Assembly (NCBI RefSeq): GCF_003573915.1
Contig: NZ_AP014608.1
Coordinates: 124,001 to 188,000, forward strand
Reading direction: 5' to 3'
Source: Blattabacterium cuenoti STAT
GTDB taxonomy: Bacteria; Bacteroidota; Bacteroidia; Flavobacteriales; Blattabacteriaceae
Length of the DNA stretch: 64,000 nucleotides
This document shows, one piece after another, positions 12,923 through 39,315 of this stretch (positions are counted from its first letter, which is position 1; each line of letters opens with the position of its first letter). The notes under the pieces are model-generated. The model was not told the origin of the DNA. It made no database searches and worked only from the letters and a program-made list of their open reading frames with translations. A program made the position numbers and the translations under genes.

Positions 12923-13495
12923 ATGGAATGGATCAATTCATTAATTAGTTGTTTCATGATACTTTTTAGTATTATAGATATATTAGGTAATGCTCCCATA
13001 ATTATGGGTTTTAAATCAAAAGGGAATATTATAGAAACTAAAAAAATTATAATTTCTTCTCTTGTAATATTTTTATCTTTTCTTTTTTTAGGACAACCTA
13101 TGCTTAAGCTCATTGGAGTTGATATACATTCCTTTTCTGTAGCGGGATCTATAGTATTATTTTTAATTGGTTTAGAAATGATATTGGGAATAGATATTCA
13201 CAAAATTACAGAAAATGCTCAAACTTCTATTGTACCAATTTCCTTTCCACTTATAGCTGGGCCTGGATCTTTAACAACTTTAATTTCATTAAGAACAACT
13301 TACGACATAAACATTATTCTTTTATCTCTTATTTTGAATATGATAGTTGTCTATTTTGTAATAGATAGATGTGATTTTATAGCAAAAAAAATAGGATCTA
13401 ATGGATTAGATATTTTAAAGAAAATATTTGGAATTGTTTTATTAGCTTTTGCGGTAAAAATTTTTGGAGCTAATGCTACTCAATTATTTCAGTAA
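12923..13495 (+). CDS. MarC family integral membrane protein
   Basis: This 190-residue protein has about six membrane segments and the MarC/YhgN family layout: an N-terminal FMILFSIIDILGNAPIIMGF, a central hydrophobic FSVAGSIVLFLIGLEMILG and the conserved PISFPLIAGPGSLTTLISL around residues 108-126. The family is widespread with no firm function; an early role in multiple antibiotic resistance was withdrawn. It is preceded by a 163-base AT-rich spacer (12760-12922) and its end overlaps the convergent rnpA by 7 bases. Confidence 0.88.
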   Translation: MEWINSLISCFMILFSIIDILGNAPIIMGFKSKGNIIETKKIIISSLVIFLSFLFLGQPMLKLIGVDIHSFSVAGSIVLFLIGLEMILGIDIHKITENAQTSIVPISFPLIAGPGSLTTLISLRTTYDINIILLSLILNMIVVYFVIDRCDFIAKKIGSNGLDILKKIFGIVLLAFAVKIFGANATQLFQ

Positions 13496-13863
13496 TAATT
13501 TTTTGTTATTTTATTGAAAGTTTTTATAACAGATTTATTTATATTATTAAATTCAGGTAAATAAAAAGCCTTATAAATAAAAATTATATAAAATTTTTGA
13601 TTTTTAATATAATTTTCAATAATTGACTTATTCAAAAAAAAAGACGCTTTTAATAAACGTCTTATTCTATTTCTATGAACTGATTTTTTAAAAAAAATCT
13701 TTTTTACTAAAATTCCAATTAAATTTGGGGATAAATTTTTTTCATTATCTATTTTTTTTAATAAAAAAATAGATAAAATAGGATATTCAAACAAATATTT
13801 TCCATTTTTTATTAATTCTTCAAAAATTTTTTTTTTTTGAATTAAATTTTCAATCATATTCAC
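13489..13863 (-). CDS. rnpA: Ribonuclease P protein component
   Basis: This small basic protein binds RNase P RNA and helps bind the pre-tRNA leader. At 124 residues it is of normal length, and it carries the RNR signature [14 protein letters not shown] (62-75), with the rest typical of a diverged symbiont copy. It does not sit next to rpmH as in most bacteria but follows fbp, whose last codons it overlaps by 14 bases, implying coupled translation. Its RNA partner rnpB is about 12 kb upstream. Two in-frame ATGs (MNMIENL) are possible starts; the first lies inside fbp. Confidence 0.9.
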
Positions 13864-15356: not shown

Positions 15357-15746
15357 ATGTGTATTATTATAAAAATAGTAAATATTTCATCTAATCCTTT
15401 GCCTAATTATGGAACAAAAGGTTCTTCTGGTATGGATTTAAGAGCATTTTTAAAAAATGATATTACAATTTATTCTATGGAAAAAAAAATTATAAAAACA
15501 GGTTTATTTATTGAAATTCCTATAGGTTACGAAGGACAAATTCGCTCTAGAAGTGGGTTAGCTTTAAATCATGGAATTACCGTATTAAATGATCCAGGAA
15601 CCATAGATTCAGATTACAGAGGAGAAATAAAAATTTTATTATTGAATTTATCTAAAAACCCATTTCTTATAAAAAATGGGAATAGAATTGCTCAAATTAT
15701 ATTTTCTAAACATGAAGAAATAAAATGGAATTCTAATTTGAATTAA
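15357..15746 (+). CDS. dut: dUTP diphosphatase lacking motif V
   Basis: dUTPase turns dUTP into dUMP, protecting DNA from uracil and feeding ThyA. Four of the five trimeric dUTPase motifs are seen: I SGMDLRA (24-30), II RSRSGLA (63-69), III GTIDSDYRGE (81-90) and IV GNRIAQ (108-113). The protein stops at residue 129, just after HEEIKWNSNLN, whereas family members are usually about 140-150 residues and end in glycine-rich motif V (GxGGFGSTG). I looked in the bases after the TAA in all plus-strand frames and saw no motif V remnant, so this is a truncation, not a simple frameshift. Activity may be reduced. The 3' end is 9 bases from a convergent gene. Confidence 0.92.
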   Translation: MCIIIKIVNISSNPLPNYGTKGSSGMDLRAFLKNDITIYSMEKKIIKTGLFIEIPIGYEGQIRSRSGLALNHGITVLNDPGTIDSDYRGEIKILLLNLSKNPFLIKNGNRIAQIIFSKHEEIKWNSNLN

Positions 15747-15755
15747 TTGTAAATT

Positions 15756-16253
15756 CTATTTTTCTATTTTGATTAACATGAAAATACTATAATTTAATAT
15801 ATCTATATAATTATCATAAATTTTTTCATAAGAATTGTTTATATCTTGTAAATTTTTTTCCATATTTTGAATCCTAAACAATTTTTGAAAAATTATATCT
15901 TTTATAGAAGAAAAATCCATAATTTTCCAAGCTTCTTTATAATCAAAATTTTTTTTGATCATTAAAAGCTTTGCCTTTTTTGTATATATATCATAATAAT
16001 TATGAATATCAATATTATTCTTTCTGAGAAAGAATATTTCCATATTTATAATATTTTTTTTATAAAAAATAATAGCTATAATAGATAAATTTATAACATC
16101 TATCCATTTATTGTTTTTAATCTTCAAAAAAAGAATATTATTTATATCTTTTTTTTGAAGGTTTTCAATTAATTTTTTTTTTAAAAAAGTTCTACATTTC
16201 CTTAAAATCGCATCATATTGAATAGAAGTATCAATATTATTTTTAATATTCAT
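15756..16253 (-). CDS. DUF1599 domain protein
   Basis: This 165-residue protein has the start TSIQYDAILRKCRTFLKKK (9-27) and the C-terminal block YKEAWKIMDFSSIKDIIFQK, then RIQNMEKN, and finally YIDILNYSIFMLIKIE. This matches the DUF1599 family (nucleotide-modification-associated domain) as I recall it from Bacteroidota. Its fold is thought to be MazG-like all-alpha, which would fit a nucleotide pyrophosphatase role, but no activity is known to me. Its ATG overlaps the upstream VRR-NUC stop by one base (TAATG), and that gene overlaps or abuts nrdB, so the three form one operon linked to DNA precursors. Confidence 0.75.
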   Translation of the reverse strand: MNIKNNIDTSIQYDAILRKCRTFLKKKLIENLQKKDINNILFLKIKNNKWIDVINLSIIAIIFYKKNIINMEIFFLRKNNIDIHNYYDIYTKKAKLLMIKKNFDYKEAWKIMDFSSIKDIIFQKLFRIQNMEKNLQDINNSYEKIYDNYIDILNYSIFMLIKIEK

Positions 16254-16636
16254 TAATTTTTCAAATATTGATCTATATAAATTTTTGCTTGATCAAAAGA
16301 ATAACAAATATTTACATTCCAATTATATGAGTTTAATATATTCATAATTTTGATTTGATTTCTAGTTAATTTATTTGGTTTTATTTTGAATTCTAAAGCC
16401 ATCCCCGTTATTCCTTTTTTAAAATTAGGCATAGGAACTAATAAATCAGGCATTCCTGGTCTTAATCTCATTACTTTAATAAGAAATCTTTCATAAAAAC
16501 TCCTTTTAGATTCATTATGTGGATGAAAATAAAATATATGAGGATATTTATAATCCAAGTAATCACAAACAGAACTATGTAACAATTGTTCTTTTCCTAA
16601 AAAATTTTTATACCAATTTTTCATCTTAAGATTCAC
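16253..16636 (-). CDS. VRR-NUC domain nuclease-like protein
   Basis: This 127-residue protein has the VRR-NUC variant of the PD-(D/E)xK fold. The visible site is PGMPDLLVP (D64 in GMPD), followed by MALEFKIKPNKLTRNQ (E82 and K84 of the ExK), with HPHNESKRS upstream (E42). These are all the residues expected for metal-dependent cutting. Stand-alone VRR-NUC proteins are common in phages and a few are structure-specific nucleases. Two starts are possible: 16636, overlapping the end of nrdB by 11 bases, or the ATG at 16624, which follows the nrdB stop by one base and is equally likely. A phage-type nuclease kept in a tiny symbiont genome is unexpected. Confidence 0.85.
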   Translation of the reverse strand: MNLKMKNWYKNFLGKEQLLHSSVCDYLDYKYPHIFYFHPHNESKRSFYERFLIKVMRLRPGMPDLLVPMPNFKKGITGMALEFKIKPNKLTRNQIKIMNILNSYNWNVNICYSFDQAKIYIDQYLKN

Positions 16637-17717
16637 AAGAAATACATTCGGATCCTCCCAAATTTTCCTTTTTATTCTCTAATAAAATTTTTAATATTTT
16701 ATCTTCTGATTTCTTTTTCTTATCAGAAATATCTTTTAAATTAGAAGAAATAAAAAGATCATCATTCCAATCTTCATTGGGTTTACTATATCCTGTTTCA
16801 CGATTATCAAAAAAATCAGTTTGTTGTTCTCCAGATATCGTTATATAAAACCAATCCATATTAGATAACATATTTTTATTAATAGGATATGAATCATTCA
16901 ACCCTAATTCTCTCAATTTCATATTTGCTCTATCTTTCATAAAATTTTTAAGATCTTCTCTTTTAATAGTAGAAAGATCCCCTTTTCCAAATATTTGATC
17001 AATAAAAATAAATTCATTTTTCAATGCTAAATCTATTCCTTGATAAACAAGTTTTTCAACTGATTTCTTTAATCCTTTATTTTCTTCACAAAGAGTCCGA
17101 AAAATTTTACATCCTGCTTCCGAATGTAAAGACTCATCTCTAACAGAAAAAATAATTTGTTGACCTATTCCTTTTAAACGATTTGATTTTCTAAAAGAAA
17201 GTAAAACTGCAAAAGAAGAAAATAATTGTATTCCTTCTGCAGCTGCAGAAAACAAAGCGATACTTCTTGCAATTTCTTTTTCATCATATTGACCATGAGG
17301 ACTTTTTCTAATATCCATTAAAATTTTCAATTTATTCATTGTAGCTTCATCTTTTAAAAAAGCATGAAAATCATCCAAACCCAAAATATCATTCAGATAA
17401 GAATAAGCTACAGCATGAATTGTTTCAAATGATCCAAAAGTTTGTCCCATCATTTTTATTTCAGGAATAGGAAACCATCTAGGAATCATCTCTGACCAAT
17501 AATTTCCTACTTCTGTTTCCGTTTGAGTAAATCCTTTTAAGATATCTCCAATTACATTTTTTTCCTGAAAAGATAAATTTTCATTCCAATCATGAATATC
17601 CGATTGCATATTAATCTCTGTATGTAACCAATGTGCATTTTGTTGTTTAAACCAATAATCATATGCCCACTGATATTCAAATGGTTTAAAATTTAAACGA
17701 TCTTTCGTAATACTCAT
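16626..17717 (-). CDS. nrdB: Ribonucleotide reductase beta subunit (class I)
   Basis: NrdB carries the di-iron centre and tyrosyl radical that start ribonucleotide reduction in NrdA. In 363 residues the metal ligands are all present with R2 spacing: E67 (QTETEVGNYW), E98 and H101 (FETIHAVAY), E161 (AAAEG), and E195 and H198 (RDESLH). Tyr105 is the radical residue. This makes it a conventional tyrosyl-radical enzyme. The partner nrdA is not adjacent or elsewhere in the window. It is the promoter-proximal gene of an operon with the VRR-NUC and DUF1599 genes. Upstream is a 290-base divergent spacer shared with plsC. Confidence 0.96.
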   Translation of the reverse strand: MSITKDRLNFKPFEYQWAYDYWFKQQNAHWLHTEINMQSDIHDWNENLSFQEKNVIGDILKGFTQTETEVGNYWSEMIPRWFPIPEIKMMGQTFGSFETIHAVAYSYLNDILGLDDFHAFLKDEATMNKLKILMDIRKSPHGQYDEKEIARSIALFSAAAEGIQLFSSFAVLLSFRKSNRLKGIGQQIIFSVRDESLHSEAGCKIFRTLCEENKGLKKSVEKLVYQGIDLALKNEFIFIDQIFGKGDLSTIKREDLKNFMKDRANMKLRELGLNDSYPINKNMLSNMDWFYITISGEQQTDFFDNRETGYSKPNEDWNDDLFISSNLKDISDKKKKSEDKILKILLENKKENLGGSECISCES

Positions 17718-18760: not shown

Positions 18761-18781
18761 AATAATTAATATGAATTGTTC

Positions 18782-19255
18782 GTGAATAAAAAAATTCATA
18801 TTTATACTGACGGTTCTTCAAAAGGAAATCCTGGACCAGGAGGATATGGAGTTTTTATAGAAACATTTTTTGGAAATTTTTATAACAGAAAAATAATTTC
18901 TGAAGGATTTCGTTATACAACGAATAACAGAATGGAATTACTATCAGTGATAGTAGGGTTAGAAAAAATAAAAAATAAAAAACAAAATATTGTTGTTTTT
19001 ACTGATTCTAAATACATAATAAATACTGTACAAAATAAATGGATCGATAAATGGAAAAAAAATAATTTTCAAAATAAAAAAAATGTAGATTTATGGAAAA
19101 GATTTTTAAATTTATTTTACAAACATTCTGTAATATTTCATTGGATAAAAAGTCATAATTATCATTATATAAACGACTATTGTGATCGATTATCTGCAAT
19201 TGCGTCTAAAAATGAAAAATTAAAAATAGATTATATTTATGAAAAATATAGATAG
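18782..19255 (+). CDS. rnhA: Ribonuclease HI
   Basis: RNase HI cuts RNA in RNA-DNA hybrids, removing primers and R-loops. I chose the GTG at 18782, giving 157 residues that begin near KKIHIYTDGSSKGNPGPGGYG; a TTG two codons earlier (18776) is the alternative. With this start the catalytic residues are D10 (YTDGS), E52 (NNRMELL), D75 (FTDSKY) and D135 (NDYCDRLS), matching E. coli D10/E48/D70/D134. The conserved WIKSHNYHYINDYCD segment before the last Asp is present. The 3' end is 8 bases from the convergent methyltransferase gene. No ATG is available at the conserved start. Confidence 0.93.
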   Translation: MNKKIHIYTDGSSKGNPGPGGYGVFIETFFGNFYNRKIISEGFRYTTNNRMELLSVIVGLEKIKNKKQNIVVFTDSKYIINTVQNKWIDKWKKNNFQNKKNVDLWKRFLNLFYKHSVIFHWIKSHNYHYINDYCDRLSAIASKNEKLKIDYIYEKYR

Positions 19256-20079: not shown

Positions 20080-20507
20080 ATGATGATTTTTTATAAAAAA
20101 TACGATGATGATATAGTGTATATGAATATAGCGATTGAATATTCAAAATTATCTTTTTGTAAAAAAAAAAAGTAGGAGCTGTTATAGTCAATAATAATCG
20201 AATCATATCTAACGGATACAACCGGACTCCAAATGGATTTGATAATCTTTGTGAAGATTATAATGGAAATACCAAATGGTATGTTCTTCATGCAGAAGCA
20301 AATGCAATATTAAAAATGTCTTCTTCTTTTTTATCTTGTAAAGGAGCGTCCATCTATATTACTCATTTTCCATGTAAAGAATGTTGTAAACTAATTTATT
20401 TATCTAATCTAAAAAGAGTTATTTATTTGTATGAAAAAAATGATGAAGAATTTTATTTTTTAAAAAAATTAAAAATTGAAATAAAAAAACTAATTAAAAT
20501 TTCATAA
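20080..20507 (+). pseudogene. dCMP deaminase-like gene, frameshifted at an A11 tract (possibly rescued by slippage)
   Basis: The region encodes a ComEB-type deoxycytidylate deaminase in two frames. Frame one, from ATG 20080, gives about 31 codons ending SKLSFCKKKK and then TAG at 20173. The second frame continues without a gap: VGAVIVNNNRIISNGYNRTP, then CEDYNGNTKWYVLHAEANAI and ITHFPCKECCKL to the stop at 20507. All zinc and catalytic residues are intact: HAE at 20289-20297 and PCKEC at 20370-20384. The break lies in eleven A bases (20161-20171). Twelve A would give one open frame of about 142 codons, the usual size. Either it is a young pseudogene, or RNA polymerase slippage restores the frame in part of the transcripts. 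dCMP deaminase would supply dUMP for ThyA. Confidence 0.8.
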
Positions 20508-32892: not shown

Positions 32893-35388
32893 ATGAATGA
32901 AAACGAAGGAGAAAAATTAATATCTATTAATATTGAGGATGAAATGAAATCATCTTATATAGATTATTCTATGTCTGTAATTGTATCCCGAGCTCTTCCA
33001 GATGTTAGAGATGGATTAAAACCTGTACATAGAAGAGTTCTTTATGGAATGTATCAATTAGGAGTTTTCTCTAATAGTTCTTATAAAAAATCTGCTCGTA
33101 TTGTTGGAGAAGTATTGGGAAAATATCATCCTCATGGAGACGTTTCCGTTTATGATACAATGGTTCGTATGACTCAAAAATGGACATTACGTTATCCATT
33201 AATAGATGGACAGGGAAATTTTGGATCATTAGATGCCGATCCTCCGGCAGCCATGCGTTATACAGAAGTAAAAATGAAAAGAATATCTGAAGAAATGTTG
33301 TTAGATATTAAAAAAGAAACTGTGGACATGCAATTAAATTTTGATGATTCTTTAGAAGAGCCAACCGTTTTACCTACCAGAATTCCTAATCTTATAATCA
33401 ACGGATCTTCTGGAATTGCAGTAGGAATGGCAACGAATATTCCCCCTCATAATTTAACAGAAACTATAAACGCTATTTTTGCTTATATAGATCATAATGA
33501 TCTCTCTATAGAAGAGATAATGAAATATCTCAAAGGCCCTGATTTTCCTACAGGAGGTATTATATATGGATACGATGGAGTTAAAAATTCCTTTCATACC
33601 GGAAAAGGACGTATTGTTTTACGTGCAAAAGTACATTTCGAAGATCTTCATGGAAGAGCATGTATAATTGTAGATGAAATCCCTTATCAAGTTAATAAAG
33701 CGGATATGATAGCTAGAACTGTAGAATTAATGAAAGAAGGAAAAATGGAAGGAATTTATCAAATTCGTGACGAATCTGATAGAAATGGATTACGTATTGT
33801 ATACATTTTAAAACAAAATGCAAATCCTAATATATTATTAAATAAATTGTTTCAATTTACTTCTTTACAAACTTATTTTAATGTTAATAATATAGCATTA
33901 GTTAATGGAAAACCTGTTCAGTTAAATATAAAAAGTTTCATTCAACATTTTGTTGATCATAGACATAATGTTATTATTCGACGTACAAAATATGAACATG
34001 AAAAATGTCAAAATCGCATTCATATATTGTTGGGTTTTTTAAAAATATTAGATCATTTAGATCCTATGATTCAATTGATTCAAAAATCCCAGAATCATTC
34101 TGATGCTTGTAATAGATTAATTCAAGAGTTTGGTATATCAAAAAATCAATCTAAATCTATTTTAGATATGAAATTACAAAATCTTACTTCTTTAGAAATA
34201 AAGAAAATTAGAAAAGAATATAACGAACTTGTTCAAAAAATAGAATTTTATAAAAATATTTTAAAAGAACATTCCACAAGAACAAAAATTATTAAAGAAG
34301 AACTCTTAGAAATTCAAAAAAAATACAAAGATAAACGACGTACACAAATCGATTATTCCGGAGATAAAATCAACATAGAAGACCTAATTGAAAACGAACA
34401 GGTTGTTCTTACTATCTCTCATGCAGGTTATATCAAAAGAACATCTTTATCAGAATATAAACGTCAAGGAAGAGGAGGGGTAGGAAATAGAGGAGCTATT
34501 GCTAGAGAATCAGATTTTTTCAAACATTTACTTGTAGCAAGAAATCGTCAATATCTACTTTTTTTTACAGAAAAAGGAAAATGTTTTTGGCTTAGAGTAT
34601 ATGAAATTCCAGAAGGATCTAAAATTTCTAAAGGTAGAGCAATACAAAATATTATTCGTCTTCAACAAGATGATAAAGTCAATGCTTGTATATTAGCAGG
34701 AGATCTTTCCAACAAAAAATATGTAAAAGATTATTATGTCATGATGATTACAAAAAAAGGAATTATCAAAAAAACACCTTTAGAAAATTATTCTCGTCCT
34801 AGAAAAAATGGAATTAATGCAATTGTGATTCGTAAGGAAGATTCTTTAATAGAAGCTATTTTGACTAAGGGAGATAGTCATGTTTTTATTGCTATAAAAA
34901 GTGGAAGGATTATTCGTTTTTCAGAAAAAAAAATTCGTTCAACTGGAAGGGCTTCTTCTGGAGTGATAGGGATTCATATAAGAAATCAAGATATGGTTGT
35001 TGGAATGATATGTGTAGAAGGAAAAGAAAAAGGAAATTTGTTAGTTGTTTCTGAAAAGGGATTTGGAAAACGATCTAATATCAAAAATTATCGAATTACT
35101 AATCGTGGGGGAAAAGGAATTAAAACAATAAATATAACTCAAAAGACAGGAAGTTTAATTTCCATTAAATATGTCACAGATCAAGATGATTTAATGATCA
35201 TCAAAAAATCAGGAATTATTATACGTATACCTATATCAGATATAAGAGTTATGGGAAGAACAACTCAAGGAGTTAGATTAATTAATTTAAAAGAAAACGA
35301 TGCAATAGCTGATGTAGCAAAAGTTTATAAACCTATTATGGATAATTCATTAAAATCTCGTAATATGTTAATACCTTCTGATACATAA
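32893..35388 (+). CDS. gyrA: DNA gyrase subunit A
   Basis: GyrA cuts and rejoins DNA while gyrase adds negative supercoils. The 831 residues have the breakage-reunion core with catalytic Tyr123 ([10 protein letters not shown]), the helix with [13 protein letters not shown] (78-90), and a C-terminal beta-pinwheel carrying a GyrA-box-like [11 protein letters not shown]. That box marks it as GyrA, not ParC. The residue matching E. coli Ser83 is Val84, a quinolone-contact position. The gene's last 64 bases overlap the convergent protease gene, an unusually long shared 3' end. Confidence 0.95.
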
Positions 35389-37445
35389 AAGTCTTTTTTC
35401 AAATTTTTTTTCCATTCTTTTTCTGATTCATTTGAAATAATTTTATAATAGGAAGAAAACGCTTGTAATCCACATGTGTTCAATTTTTTTCTTAATTTTT
35501 TTATAATTTCATTTCTTTTTTTCATTTTTAAATTTTCAGAATAAAACTCTTTCCAATTCAAAGAAATTTTTTTCTTATTAAAAAATTCGTTTTCTAATAA
35601 TTCCAGTTTATTATAAATAGAAGTAAAATTCTTATTTTTTTCTAAACGTTTTATACTTTTATATTTAATATTCTCTATATATGAATTATTATAATAATAA
35701 TGAAGAGAAGGAATAGGTTCCGTATAATCCCATTTCATAGGATTATTTTGATTTTTTTCCATTAATTTTAAAAATTTACTTCTTGTTTTGTTATTTGGAA
35801 TAACTATATCGGAATTTACTCCATTTAATTGAGTAGAACTTCCATTTATACGATAAAATTTATTAACGGTAAATTTTAATGCCCCTAACTCTTCATTAAA
35901 ATGAAAAAATCGATTTAATGAACGAATGGTCTGTATTGTTCCTTTTCCATATGTTTGAGTACTTCCAATAATAATTCCTCTTTTATAATCTTTGATAGCC
36001 GCAGCAAGAATTTCAGAAGCAGAAGCAGATAATTCATTTACAAGAATTACAAGAGGACCTGTCCATAAAATTTTATTTTCATAATTTTTAAGTATCTTTT
36101 TTTTCTTATTAGGCCTTCCTATTTGTAGGATAGGAACTTTTCCTAAAAAAAAACCAACAATTTCTATCACAGCATCTAAAGATCCTCCTCCGTTATTTCT
36201 AATATCTATTAGAATTCCTTTTATGTTTTCTTTTTTAAATTTTTGAATAATTTCTTTTATATCTTTAGCTGCATTTCTTCCATTTTTATTTTCAGGATTA
36301 AAATAAAATTCTGGTAAATAAATTAATCCGTATTTATGTTTATTTTGATCCAAAACTATAACACTTTTTGCAAAAATTTCTTCTTTTTCAATTGTTTCTC
36401 TAGTGAGAATTACTTCTTCTATAGATCCATTTTTTTTCTGAATAGTTAATTTCACTTTACTTCCTTTTTTTCCTCTTATTAAACGAATCGAATTTTCTAA
36501 TAACATTCCTACAATATTTTTGGATTCTGAATTAATGTTTTTTGCGACTTTTATAATTCTATCTCCTATTTCTATTTTTTTATTTTTCCATGCAGGTCCA
36601 CCAGGAATAAGTTTAACAACAGTAGGAAATCCTTTATCATCTTGTAATTCTATCCCAATTCCTTCCGTTTGTCCAGATATGTTTAAATCAAAAATTTCTT
36701 TTTCCTTAGGAGAAAAATAATTTGTATGAGGATCATATTGAGAAGTTATAATATTAACATATATGGAAAACCAATCGTTTTCTTTTTTTATTTTTAGTTT
36801 TCTAAAGTATTCTTGAATATATTCTTTTATTTTTTTTCTAGATTTTTTTTCTTCATCAAAAAATACATTCTTACAAATTTTTTGTTTTGTTCTGGAAGCA
36901 ATTATTTTTTCTTTTTTTAAAGTGATTATTTCTAATAGAGTCATATATTTTAAATATTTTCTCCATCTTTCAATTTTTTCTTTTTGATTTTTTGGATAAG
37001 AAATTTTTTGTTCTCCAAATAAATATGTTTCTTTTTTATTAAAATCGAAAGATTTTTTCAAAACTTGAAAACATATAAATTCTGCTTCTTTTATTCTTTT
37101 TAAAAAACATTCTATAATAATATTAAAAAAAGTAGGATCTCCATGAATCCAAAAATCATCTATTCTTTCTTTATATAAAGAAAGATCTGACAGATCTTTT
37201 TGTAGAAAAAAATGTTTTTCATTATCTAATTTTTCAAAACATTTATTATATACTTTTTTCGAAAAATCATCATCTATAGAAATAGGAATAGGATGTAAAA
37301 AATGAAGTGTTTTGTATATTGTTTTAAGTATTATATGATGTTTTTCTTTTTCTCCTAACGGAGAACAAAAACTTAATGAAAAAATGAAAAAGAAACTAAT
37401 GATTATATATTTAATATCATTTAGTTTTTTTATTTTAAAATTCAC
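35325..37445 (-). CDS. Tail-specific (C-terminal processing) protease, S41 family
   Basis: This periplasmic serine protease of the Prc/CtpA group has about 706 residues from the GTG at 37445. The frame stays open to 37580, but that extension would run into surE and read as its antisense, so I prefer the GTG, which is followed at once by a hydrophobic signal (KYIIISFFFIFSLSFCSPL) with a near-lipobox LSFC. A PDZ domain shows GIGIELQDDKGFPTVVKLIP, and the catalytic Ser-Lys pair is in NELSASASEILAAA and TYGKGTIQ. An N-terminal TSP-like helical region and a C-terminal DUF3340-like part make it the long Prc type. It overlaps gyrA by 64 bases. Confidence 0.88.
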   Translation of the reverse strand: MNFKIKKLNDIKYIIISFFFIFSLSFCSPLGEKEKHHIILKTIYKTLHFLHPIPISIDDDFSKKVYNKCFEKLDNEKHFFLQKDLSDLSLYKERIDDFWIHGDPTFFNIIIECFLKRIKEAEFICFQVLKKSFDFNKKETYLFGEQKISYPKNQKEKIERWRKYLKYMTLLEIITLKKEKIIASRTKQKICKNVFFDEEKKSRKKIKEYIQEYFRKLKIKKENDWFSIYVNIITSQYDPHTNYFSPKEKEIFDLNISGQTEGIGIELQDDKGFPTVVKLIPGGPAWKNKKIEIGDRIIKVAKNINSESKNIVGMLLENSIRLIRGKKGSKVKLTIQKKNGSIEEVILTRETIEKEEIFAKSVIVLDQNKHKYGLIYLPEFYFNPENKNGRNAAKDIKEIIQKFKKENIKGILIDIRNNGGGSLDAVIEIVGFFLGKVPILQIGRPNKKKKILKNYENKILWTGPLVILVNELSASASEILAAAIKDYKRGIIIGSTQTYGKGTIQTIRSLNRFFHFNEELGALKFTVNKFYRINGSSTQLNGVNSDIVIPNNKTRSKFLKLMEKNQNNPMKWDYTEPIPSLHYYYNNSYIENIKYKSIKRLEKNKNFTSIYNKLELLENEFFNKKKISLNWKEFYSENLKMKKRNEIIKKLRKKLNTCGLQAFSSYYKIISNESEKEWKKNLKKDFYVSEGINILRDFNELSIIGL

Positions 37446-37509
37446 AATAATGTTTTGATTGAAAAATTTTAGTAAAATTATACATAAATAGTTTTTATAT
37501 GATAAAAAA

Positions 37510-38319
37510 ATGAAAAAGAAACCAATTATTTTAGTCACAAATGACGATGGAATATTAGCTCCAGGTATTAGAGCTCTCATACATTCTATGAATCTTTTAG
37601 GAGATGTATATGTAGTTGCCCCAAATAAACCACAATCTGGAATAGGACATGCAATAACAATGGATACAATTTTATTCTGTGATTCTGTAAAAATAGATAA
37701 TGGAAATCAAAAAGAATGGGAATGCTCTGGAACTCCTGTAGATTGTGTTAAATTAGCAATTAGTGAAATTCTTCCAAAAAAACCTGATATTTGTGTATCA
37801 GGAATTAATCATGGATCAAACTCTTCTATTAATATTATATATTCTGGTACAATCTCTGCTATTATTGAAGCAAGTATAGAAGGAATACCATCCGTAGGAT
37901 TTTCTCTTTTAGATTTTAATTGGAACGCAAATTTTGAACCATATAAAAAATATATATATCAAATTGTAAAAAAAATTCTATATAATCCTATTCCGGAACA
38001 CATAATCACCTTGAATGTAAATATACCTAAATTAAAAAAAGAAGAAATTAAAGGAATTAAAATATGTAGACAAGCGAATTCTAAATGGAAAGAAAGTTTC
38101 GATAAACGTTATAATCCTAAAGGAAGAACTTATTATTGGTTAGTAGGAGAGTTTTTGAATTTAGATAATAAAAAAATAGATACTGATGAATGGGCATTAA
38201 AAAATGGATATATCTCTATTGTTCCTATTCAATTTGATTTAACCAATTATGCCATATTAAATATTCTAAAATCCTTAAATTTTTTTTGTACTATTTATTT
38301 TTTTTCGGATCTCACATAA
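37510..38319 (+). CDS. surE: 5'-nucleotidase SurE
   Basis: SurE is a metal-dependent nucleoside 5'-monophosphatase involved in stationary-phase survival. The 269 residues begin KKKPIILVTNDDGILAPGI, with the metal pair D12-D13, and include APNKPQSGIGHAIT, CSGTPVDCVKLA and VSGINHGSN. All active-site residues are intact. It is divergent from the protease gene (64-base spacer) and 36 bases upstream of ruvB. In a reduced genome it may act mainly in nucleotide salvage. Confidence 0.95.
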   Translation: MKKKPIILVTNDDGILAPGIRALIHSMNLLGDVYVVAPNKPQSGIGHAITMDTILFCDSVKIDNGNQKEWECSGTPVDCVKLAISEILPKKPDICVSGINHGSNSSINIIYSGTISAIIEASIEGIPSVGFSLLDFNWNANFEPYKKYIYQIVKKILYNPIPEHIITLNVNIPKLKKEEIKGIKICRQANSKWKESFDKRYNPKGRTYYWLVGEFLNLDNKKIDTDEWALKNGYISIVPIQFDLTNYAILNILKSLNFFCTIYFFSDLT

Positions 38320-38355: not shown

Positions 38356-39315
38356 GTGTCATCTTTTTTAGGCGGATCTTTAACCCCACAAACAATTCAA
38401 GATTTTGTTGGACAACATCATATACTAGAAAATTTGAAAGTTTTTATTCAGGCTGCTAAAAAAAGAAAAGAAGTATTAGATCATATTTTATTTCATGGAC
38501 CTCCAGGATTGGGAAAAACAACATTAGCTCATATCGTAGCTAAAGAATTATGCGTAAATCTTACGGTAACTTCAGGGTCTGTTCTAGATAAACCTGGAGA
38601 TCTAGCCGGACTGCTAATTCATTTAAAAAGAAATGATGTAATTTTTATTGACGAAATTCATCGTCTTTCTCCAATAGTTGAAGAATATTTGTATTCAGCT
38701 ATGGAAAATTACAAAATAGATATTATCATAGATTCCGGATCTAATGCTAGATCAGTACAGATAGATTTATATCCCTTTACTTTAATAGGATCTACAACAA
38801 GGTCCGGGTTACTTACAGCCCCTATGCGTTCTAGATTTGGAATAAATTTTCGTCTTAATTATTATGAAAAACAGTTATTAGATAATATTGTAAATCGTAG
38901 TGCAAAATTACTAAATATTCCAATAACGGAAGAAGCATCTTATGAAATTGCAAATAGAAGCCGTGGAACTCCACGTACAGCTAATGCCTTATTACGTAGA
39001 ATCCGTGATTTTGCGCAAATTAAAGGAAATGGGACGATTGACATTCATATATGTGATTTAGGATTACAATCTCTTAAAGTTGATCAACATGGATTAGATG
39101 AAATGGATAATAAAATTCTTTCATATATCATAGATCATTTCAAAGGAGGACCTGTAGGGATTAATACTATAGCAACAGCTGTTAGTGAAAATTCAAATAC
39201 TATAGAAGAAGTTTACGAACCTTTTCTTATTCAAGAAGGATATTTAATTAGAACCCCTAGAGGAAGAAAAGTTACAAACTTAGCTTATCAGCATATAAAA
39301 AAAAAAATAACTTAA
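38356..39315 (+). CDS. ruvB: Holliday junction branch-migration helicase RuvB
   Basis: RuvB is the AAA+ motor that moves Holliday junctions with RuvA. The GTG start at 38356 gives 319 residues: Walker A GPPGLGKT (48-55), Walker B VIFIDEIHRLSP (about 95-106), sensor 1 LIGSTTRSGLLTAPMRSRFG and the C-terminal winged helix with TPRGRKVTNLAY. It is about 20 residues shorter at the N-terminus than free-living Flavobacteriia RuvB as I recall it, but the Walker region is complete. No ruvA or ruvC is in the window. It is followed by 70 bases and the purine block. Confidence 0.95.
   Translation: MSSFLGGSLTPQTIQDFVGQHHILENLKVFIQAAKKRKEVLDHILFHGPPGLGKTTLAHIVAKELCVNLTVTSGSVLDKPGDLAGLLIHLKRNDVIFIDEIHRLSPIVEEYLYSAMENYKIDIIIDSGSNARSVQIDLYPFTLIGSTTRSGLLTAPMRSRFGINFRLNYYEKQLLDNIVNRSAKLLNIPITEEASYEIANRSRGTPRTANALLRRIRDFAQIKGNGTIDIHICDLGLQSLKVDQHGLDEMDNKILSYIIDHFKGGPVGINTIATAVSENSNTIEEVYEPFLIQEGYLIRTPRGRKVTNLAYQHIKKKIT

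Follow-up and report, generated by a model that had tools for sequence, protein, structure and literature searches.

Frameshifts in poly(A) tracts that are rescued by transcriptional slippage have been described in Buchnera and Blochmannia (Tamas 2008; Wernegreen 2010, cited in PMC3017870, PMC5009743, PMC4389277), and a review cites 12-50% corrected transcripts for other endosymbiont genes (PMC5009743). A related system is found in dnaX, where E. coli uses a -1 ribosomal shift at A_AAA_AAG and Thermus uses slippage on a run of nine As (PMC3711429). The function of frame-broken genes in symbionts is contested. Older work reports rescue (as cited in PMC5009743), but a transcriptome-wide study of Buchnera reports no frame restored by transcription error (PMC5574713).

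The window analysed here is a stretch of 64 kb, bases 124001-188000 of the genome of Blattabacterium cuenoti STAT, which consists of a single contig of 631,621 bp. All positions given are those of the window. In it, comEB, the gene of dCMP deaminase, is split into two frames by a run of eleven As and is otherwise whole (Table 1). A check of the sequence confirmed the eleven As, flanked by T at 20160 and G at 20172. The upstream frame has ATG codons at 20080 and 20083 and reads TGT AAA AAA AAA AAG TAG at its end. The part behind the tract encodes 111 aa without an internal stop and matches PF00383 (E 1.2e-19, 70.6 bits, cut-off 25); it carries the catalytic motifs HAE and PCxxC. ComEB was the top NCBIfam family for this fragment, at 65.2 bits and below the cut-off of 219.45, and the in-frame copy of the Bge strain matched deoxycytidylate deaminase 4p9c (7.7e-31). 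A TAA directly ahead of three AAA codons shuts the deaminase frame, so that in this genome the frame can change only within the tract. The base-by-base reading, the two frames and the PF00383 match thus bear out the preliminary description, which had placed comEB out of frame at A11. Among the 24 A/T runs of at least 10 bases in the window, 19 lie within open ORFs of at least 90 aa (one of them, 39297-39307, is 8 bases from the ORF end, and a truncation there is conceivable), four lie outside and one is the comEB tract. The genome has two more PF00383 matches besides comEB, and neither was retained as a backup dCMP deaminase: one is TadA-like, with 108.6 bits, below the cut-off of 150, and the other lies within a 344-aa frame that we take to be RibD.

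Table 1. Features of the comEB and rnpA loci, in window coordinates.
Feature	Position	Strand	Status
comEB zero-frame 5' part: N-terminal region, tract and TAG stop (20173-20175)	20080..20175	+	sequence read; omega 0.15 over the 19 codons before the tract in out-of-frame clades
TAA in the deaminase frame, directly 5' of the tract, shutting that frame upstream	20160..20162	+	
A11 tract, site of the frame change	20161..20171	+	out of frame in 33/49 genomes, A11 exactly in 30
A_AAA_AAG heptamer in the phase of the zero frame; a slippery sequence of the dnaX type at which a -1 ribosomal shift could occur	20166..20172	+	
comEB 3' part in the shifted frame, carrying the HAE and PCxxC motifs	20172..20507	+	open in 49/49 genomes
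rnpA (RNase P protein, PF00825)	13489..13863	-	in frame in this genome; A run interrupted at about 13690-13704

The comEB locus could be read in all 49 Blattabacterium genomes compared, and PF00383 was found in each. Besides the 30 genomes with A11, the out-of-frame group comprises two with A10 (G006 and G046) and one with an odd arrangement (G045). The other 16 are in frame with a tract of 12 bases, which is pure A12 in nine and interrupted, in six patterns, in seven. The frame break is common to many genomes of the genus and is confined to a long uninterrupted A run in 32; G045 was left out of these 32 pure tracts and of the analysis of the upstream part. In G045 (locus L137), matched to the symbiont of Blatta orientalis, comEB has a TAG followed by a T and ten As. 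Because this TAG stands before the tract, slippage within the tract could not restore that copy, which represents either a real loss or sequence errors. Seven genomes were matched to published strains, symbionts of Panesthia, Cryptocercus, Blattella, Mastotermes, Blaberus, Blatta and Nauphoeta; three of them are out of frame (G016 with A11, G046 with A10, and G045), two have A12 and two are interrupted in frame.

In 28 of the 32 pure out-of-frame genomes the zero frame stops one base past the tract, and in 29 of them the deaminase frame extends no more than 3 codons upstream of the Val codon. With both frames closed around the tract, the evident route to the enzyme in most genomes is to change frame within the As. 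An internal start for the 3' part was also considered and rejected: 23 of the 32 genomes have no ATG, GTG or TTG in frame before HAE, while nine have at least one such codon, an ATG in two of these nine. Interruptions were found in 0/32 out-of-frame tracts vs 7/16 in-frame tracts (Fisher 1.6e-4, uncorrected for kinship). However, the purity of Lys codons is by itself a weak test, because neighbour genes have 114 conserved Lys columns, of which 33 are equally free of AAG in all 32 out-of-frame genomes.

Eleven comEB loci were found by protein in named genomes, with two Blattabacterium cuenoti strains as the closest matches. The seven Bacteroidota outgroup loci all have 12 in-frame bases at the site of the tract, and neither of the other two non-Blattabacterium loci, one from an archaeon and one from a Bacillus, has a comparable motif. 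The Bacteroidota outgroups point to an ancestor with a 12-base in-frame tract. On the tree, the frame state of comEB takes 10 changes by parsimony, or 15 losses if change is one-way, and the Mk model gives -30.05 vs -31.20 for one-way loss. Neither parsimony nor the Mk model settles the ancestral frame state or decides between a single and a repeated origin. The frame state carries little phylogenetic signal, and the age of each A11 is therefore not fixed by the tree.

The preliminary description held that selection still acts on the part downstream of the tract. For the estimates of dN/dS, 13 neighbour genes with 4,583 columns in all gave the tree (two of these genes were present in 42 genomes and one in 48), and the codon model was our own script run on this fixed tree. 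Neutral branch lengths were taken from ureC and a trmH-like gene, which double as omega controls (0.034 and 0.11, respectively). Columns with more than 5 gaps were dropped from the comEB alignment, leaving 108 of 144. Behind the tract, omega is 0.110 in clades that are out of frame throughout (25 genomes), 0.114 in seven single out-of-frame tips and 0.104 on the other branches. A single common omega costs 0.3 log units, and an omega of 1 in the out-of-frame clades costs 499. The upstream 19 codons gave 0.151 in the out-of-frame clades, 0.146 in the single tips and 0.222 in the rest, with a cost of 60 for omega 1. In a clade of eight genomes with A11 throughout, over which 32 neutral substitutions per codon are summed, comEB omega is 0.107 and omega 1 costs 406. 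Over the whole tree the neutral substitutions sum to 103 per codon; the synonymous sites are so heavily changed that absolute omega values are rough, and the comparison between classes is the point. Pairwise dN/dS of comEB was 0.15-0.35 in eight out-of-frame pairs save G005/G013, 0.11-0.48 in three in-frame pairs and 0.25-0.50 in six mixed pairs. The exceptional pair has an NG86 dN/dS of 0.85 (3 synonymous and 18 nonsynonymous codons), and a neighbour gene is also raised in it, at 0.53.

Purifying selection on out-of-frame comEB is thus equal to that on its in-frame relatives, and the claim of selection downstream of the tract holds. Stops or neutral divergence behind the tract were sought in the sister strains, where the 3' frame was found open in every genome and omega far below 1. 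In the window, comEB is, as had been proposed, undamaged apart from the tract. If the tracts change slowly, comEB has long been out of frame without decay, which points to a product; if they change fast, A11 is tolerated in 30 constrained lineages because a product is made. The earlier suggestion that a working deaminase is probably made is strongly supported by the open 3' frames and the omega values over 49 genomes.

The RNase P protein, indispensable in model bacteria, is encoded by rnpA. Of the 43 genomes in which this gene could be resolved, 34 have it out of frame at the Lys-rich motif, all with an A run of 9-13, and nine have it in frame. Six further genomes (G005, G009, G023, G037, G038 and G042) were left unresolved by the parser and were treated as compatible with out-of-frame clades in branch labelling. 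An HMM search gave one match per genome in 49/49, most of which begin at about profile position 48, where the break lies. Behind the tract, rnpA omega is 0.127 for out-of-frame clades and 0.143 for the rest, and omega 1 costs 198. The out-of-frame copies show no skew to the class restored by one inserted base, 19 vs 15 needing -1 or +2. Either comEB or rnpA or both are out of frame in 41 of 43 genomes, G045 being counted as out of frame in comEB. In the published account of the Bge genome, rnpA is reported as the only pseudogene, its stop codon is ascribed by the authors to a suggested point mutation, and RNase P RNA is noted to act without the protein in vitro (PMC2768785). In G042, which was matched to Bge, rnpA has an in-frame TAA beside the tract; one slip does not account for this copy.

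The survey of other coding A/T runs in the same 20-kb stretches covered 716 gene-genome pairs, leaving out rnpA and four plasmid-derived genes. Here 279 coding runs of at least 10 bases, 116 of them of at least 11, lie inside single-frame matches. Two frames were seen outside rnpA in 12 pairs: at runs in rnhA of G020, G029 and G047 and perhaps in the trmH-like gene of G028; away from runs in thrB and thrC of G047 and thrA of G014; and in ureC of five genomes, in four only within the first 19 residues. A further 326 pairs in 20 genomes gave 90 runs of at least 10 bases in single-frame genes and nine two-framed pairs, eight of which concern a single gene, close to its start. For all these counts, tblastn matching can miss breaks close to a gene end. 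The names trmH, ureC, rnhA, thrA, thrB, thrC and nrdB are our assumed assignments, whereas comEB, rnpA, thyA and dut were checked by family profile matches.

Some of these loci deserve mention in their own right. The rnhA gene (18776-19255 in the window) has one frame here, while in G020, G029 and G047 it falls into two frames close to runs of A10, A12 or A13. The broken frames of thrB/thrC in G047 (L139), thrA in G014 (L106) and ureC in G026 (L118) perhaps reflect true gene loss. For the gene at 35325-37580, 8 of 20 relatives (L141, L142, L150, L151, L153, L154, L158 and L159) have an additional match to the N-terminal part in a second frame, with no run of at least 10 bases listed nearby. 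The genes dut and three others, one of which we take to be nrdB-like, occupy 15357-17717; they are chromosomal here and in G015 and G016 only. A dUTPase above the cut-off was found in 12 of 49 genomes, three times on the chromosome (the window genome, G015 and G016) and nine times on a small second contig. In other Blattabacterium, nrdB and dut are plasmid genes (PMC6039017), so a plasmid seems to have been integrated in the lineage of the window genome.

Two alternatives had been named at the outset, a very recent pseudogene and an assembly error, and both are disfavoured by the comparison. It is quite improbable that A11 was misassembled for A12, or that the DNA is a length mixture in which A12 copies stand beside an A11 majority among many genome copies. 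Runs this long are indeed hard to sequence, and many of the 49 genomes may share one project. However, the 279 other coding runs in the same stretches sit in single-frame matches with few breaks at runs outside rnpA, and the assemblies do show A12 at comEB in nine genomes. An isolated assembly slip at the comEB A11 is unlikely, to judge from the genomes compared, since other coding runs nearly always keep their frame and the break recurs genus-wide. That comEB lost its function recently and repeatedly is scarcely credible. The frame is broken, and a model of one-way loss is nearly as good a fit to the tree as reversible change, but omega is not raised in the out-of-frame clades, the 3' frame has stayed open throughout the genus, and the same reading would have to hold for rnpA too.

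A programmed or tolerated -1 ribosomal frameshift, in which ribosomes would slip on AAA-AAG before the TAG and go on in the deaminase frame, is unlikely. The window has A_AAA_AAG in the right phase with the stop directly after it, the heptamer is the dnaX slip sequence (PMC3711429), and the direction of a -1 shift fits all 30 A11 genomes. The context of A11 is of the dnaX type as well, which makes this translational explanation a rival for the A11 copies of comEB only. On the other hand, a -1 ribosomal shift would be useless for the two A10 copies of comEB and for the 15 of 34 rnpA copies that need -1 or +2. The consensus RNA structure around the tract, computed from 24 of the 30 A11 sequences with about 67 downstream bases covered, has 0 pairs, and the downstream RNA in the window folds no better than shuffles (z 0.19); the conserved downstream structure of a dnaX-type frameshift was thus not found over this span. 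Further upstream, the As not required for the heptamer are uninterrupted too, which is weak evidence against a ribosomal shift.

From the frame break, its recurrence, the intact flanking frames and the purifying selection we infer slippage at the RNA level and an active product, and consider it likely that comEB is functional, its one-base-short frame being rescued by RNA polymerase slippage, and rnpA likewise in most relatives. RNA polymerase would slip on the A11 of comEB, so that part of the mRNAs would carry A12 (or A9) and specify the complete deaminase, about 142 residues long. Translation of mRNAs made without a slip would end at the TAG just past the tract and yield a stub of about 31 residues. 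Slippage would likewise have retained rnpA in most relatives, and it can serve both genes and both directions. The skew of comEB to the class restored by one inserted base, 30 vs 2, fits the prevalence of single-base insertions in A/T runs that is reported in PMC5574713, while the null result on restored frames in the same paper counts against easy rescue. A more far-reaching possibility, to which we give little credence, is that the short tract itself is selected, comEB and rnpA being held out of frame and slippage fixing a low constant dose of enzyme. If so, the tract would be no tolerated accident but would throttle expression throughout the genus, and would have done so for the entire symbiosis.

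As natural replicates over 49 genomes, the two genes indicate that selection sees a product, and their comparison names the exact tracts for RNA tests. Pseudogene labels on such genes would misjudge the core gene set, the Bge RNase P protein being an example, listed as the sole pseudogene (PMC2768785). Among the papers covered by the literature search, none joins Blattabacterium with dCMP deaminase, and the single listing for Blattabacterium together with rnpA is a preprint about methods for dN/dS. Searches within PMC3287516, PMC9603385 and PMC4567559 gave nothing relevant. Within the reach of the literature searched, the genus, the pair of comEB and rnpA and the breadth of 49 genomes are new, and the kind of case is already known.

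The present locus resembles the Buchnera and Blochmannia cases in belonging to an AT-rich insect endosymbiont, in being broken only at a long A run with the rest intact, and in that some frameshifts are common to several species. It differs from them in belonging to the Bacteroidota and not the Gammaproteobacteria, in the 33 of 49 genomes affected at one tract, in the presence of rnpA as a second gene and in being known from DNA alone. With dnaX it shares the heptamer and a long A run; unlike dnaX, which has two useful products, the short product of comEB would appear useless, and no conserved structure was found. The rnpA 'pseudogene' of Bge is the same gene with a stop in the same Lys-rich stretch (PMC2768785). 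In contrast to the reading given there, rnpA across the genus mostly has its frame broken at a poly(A) run and is under purifying selection.
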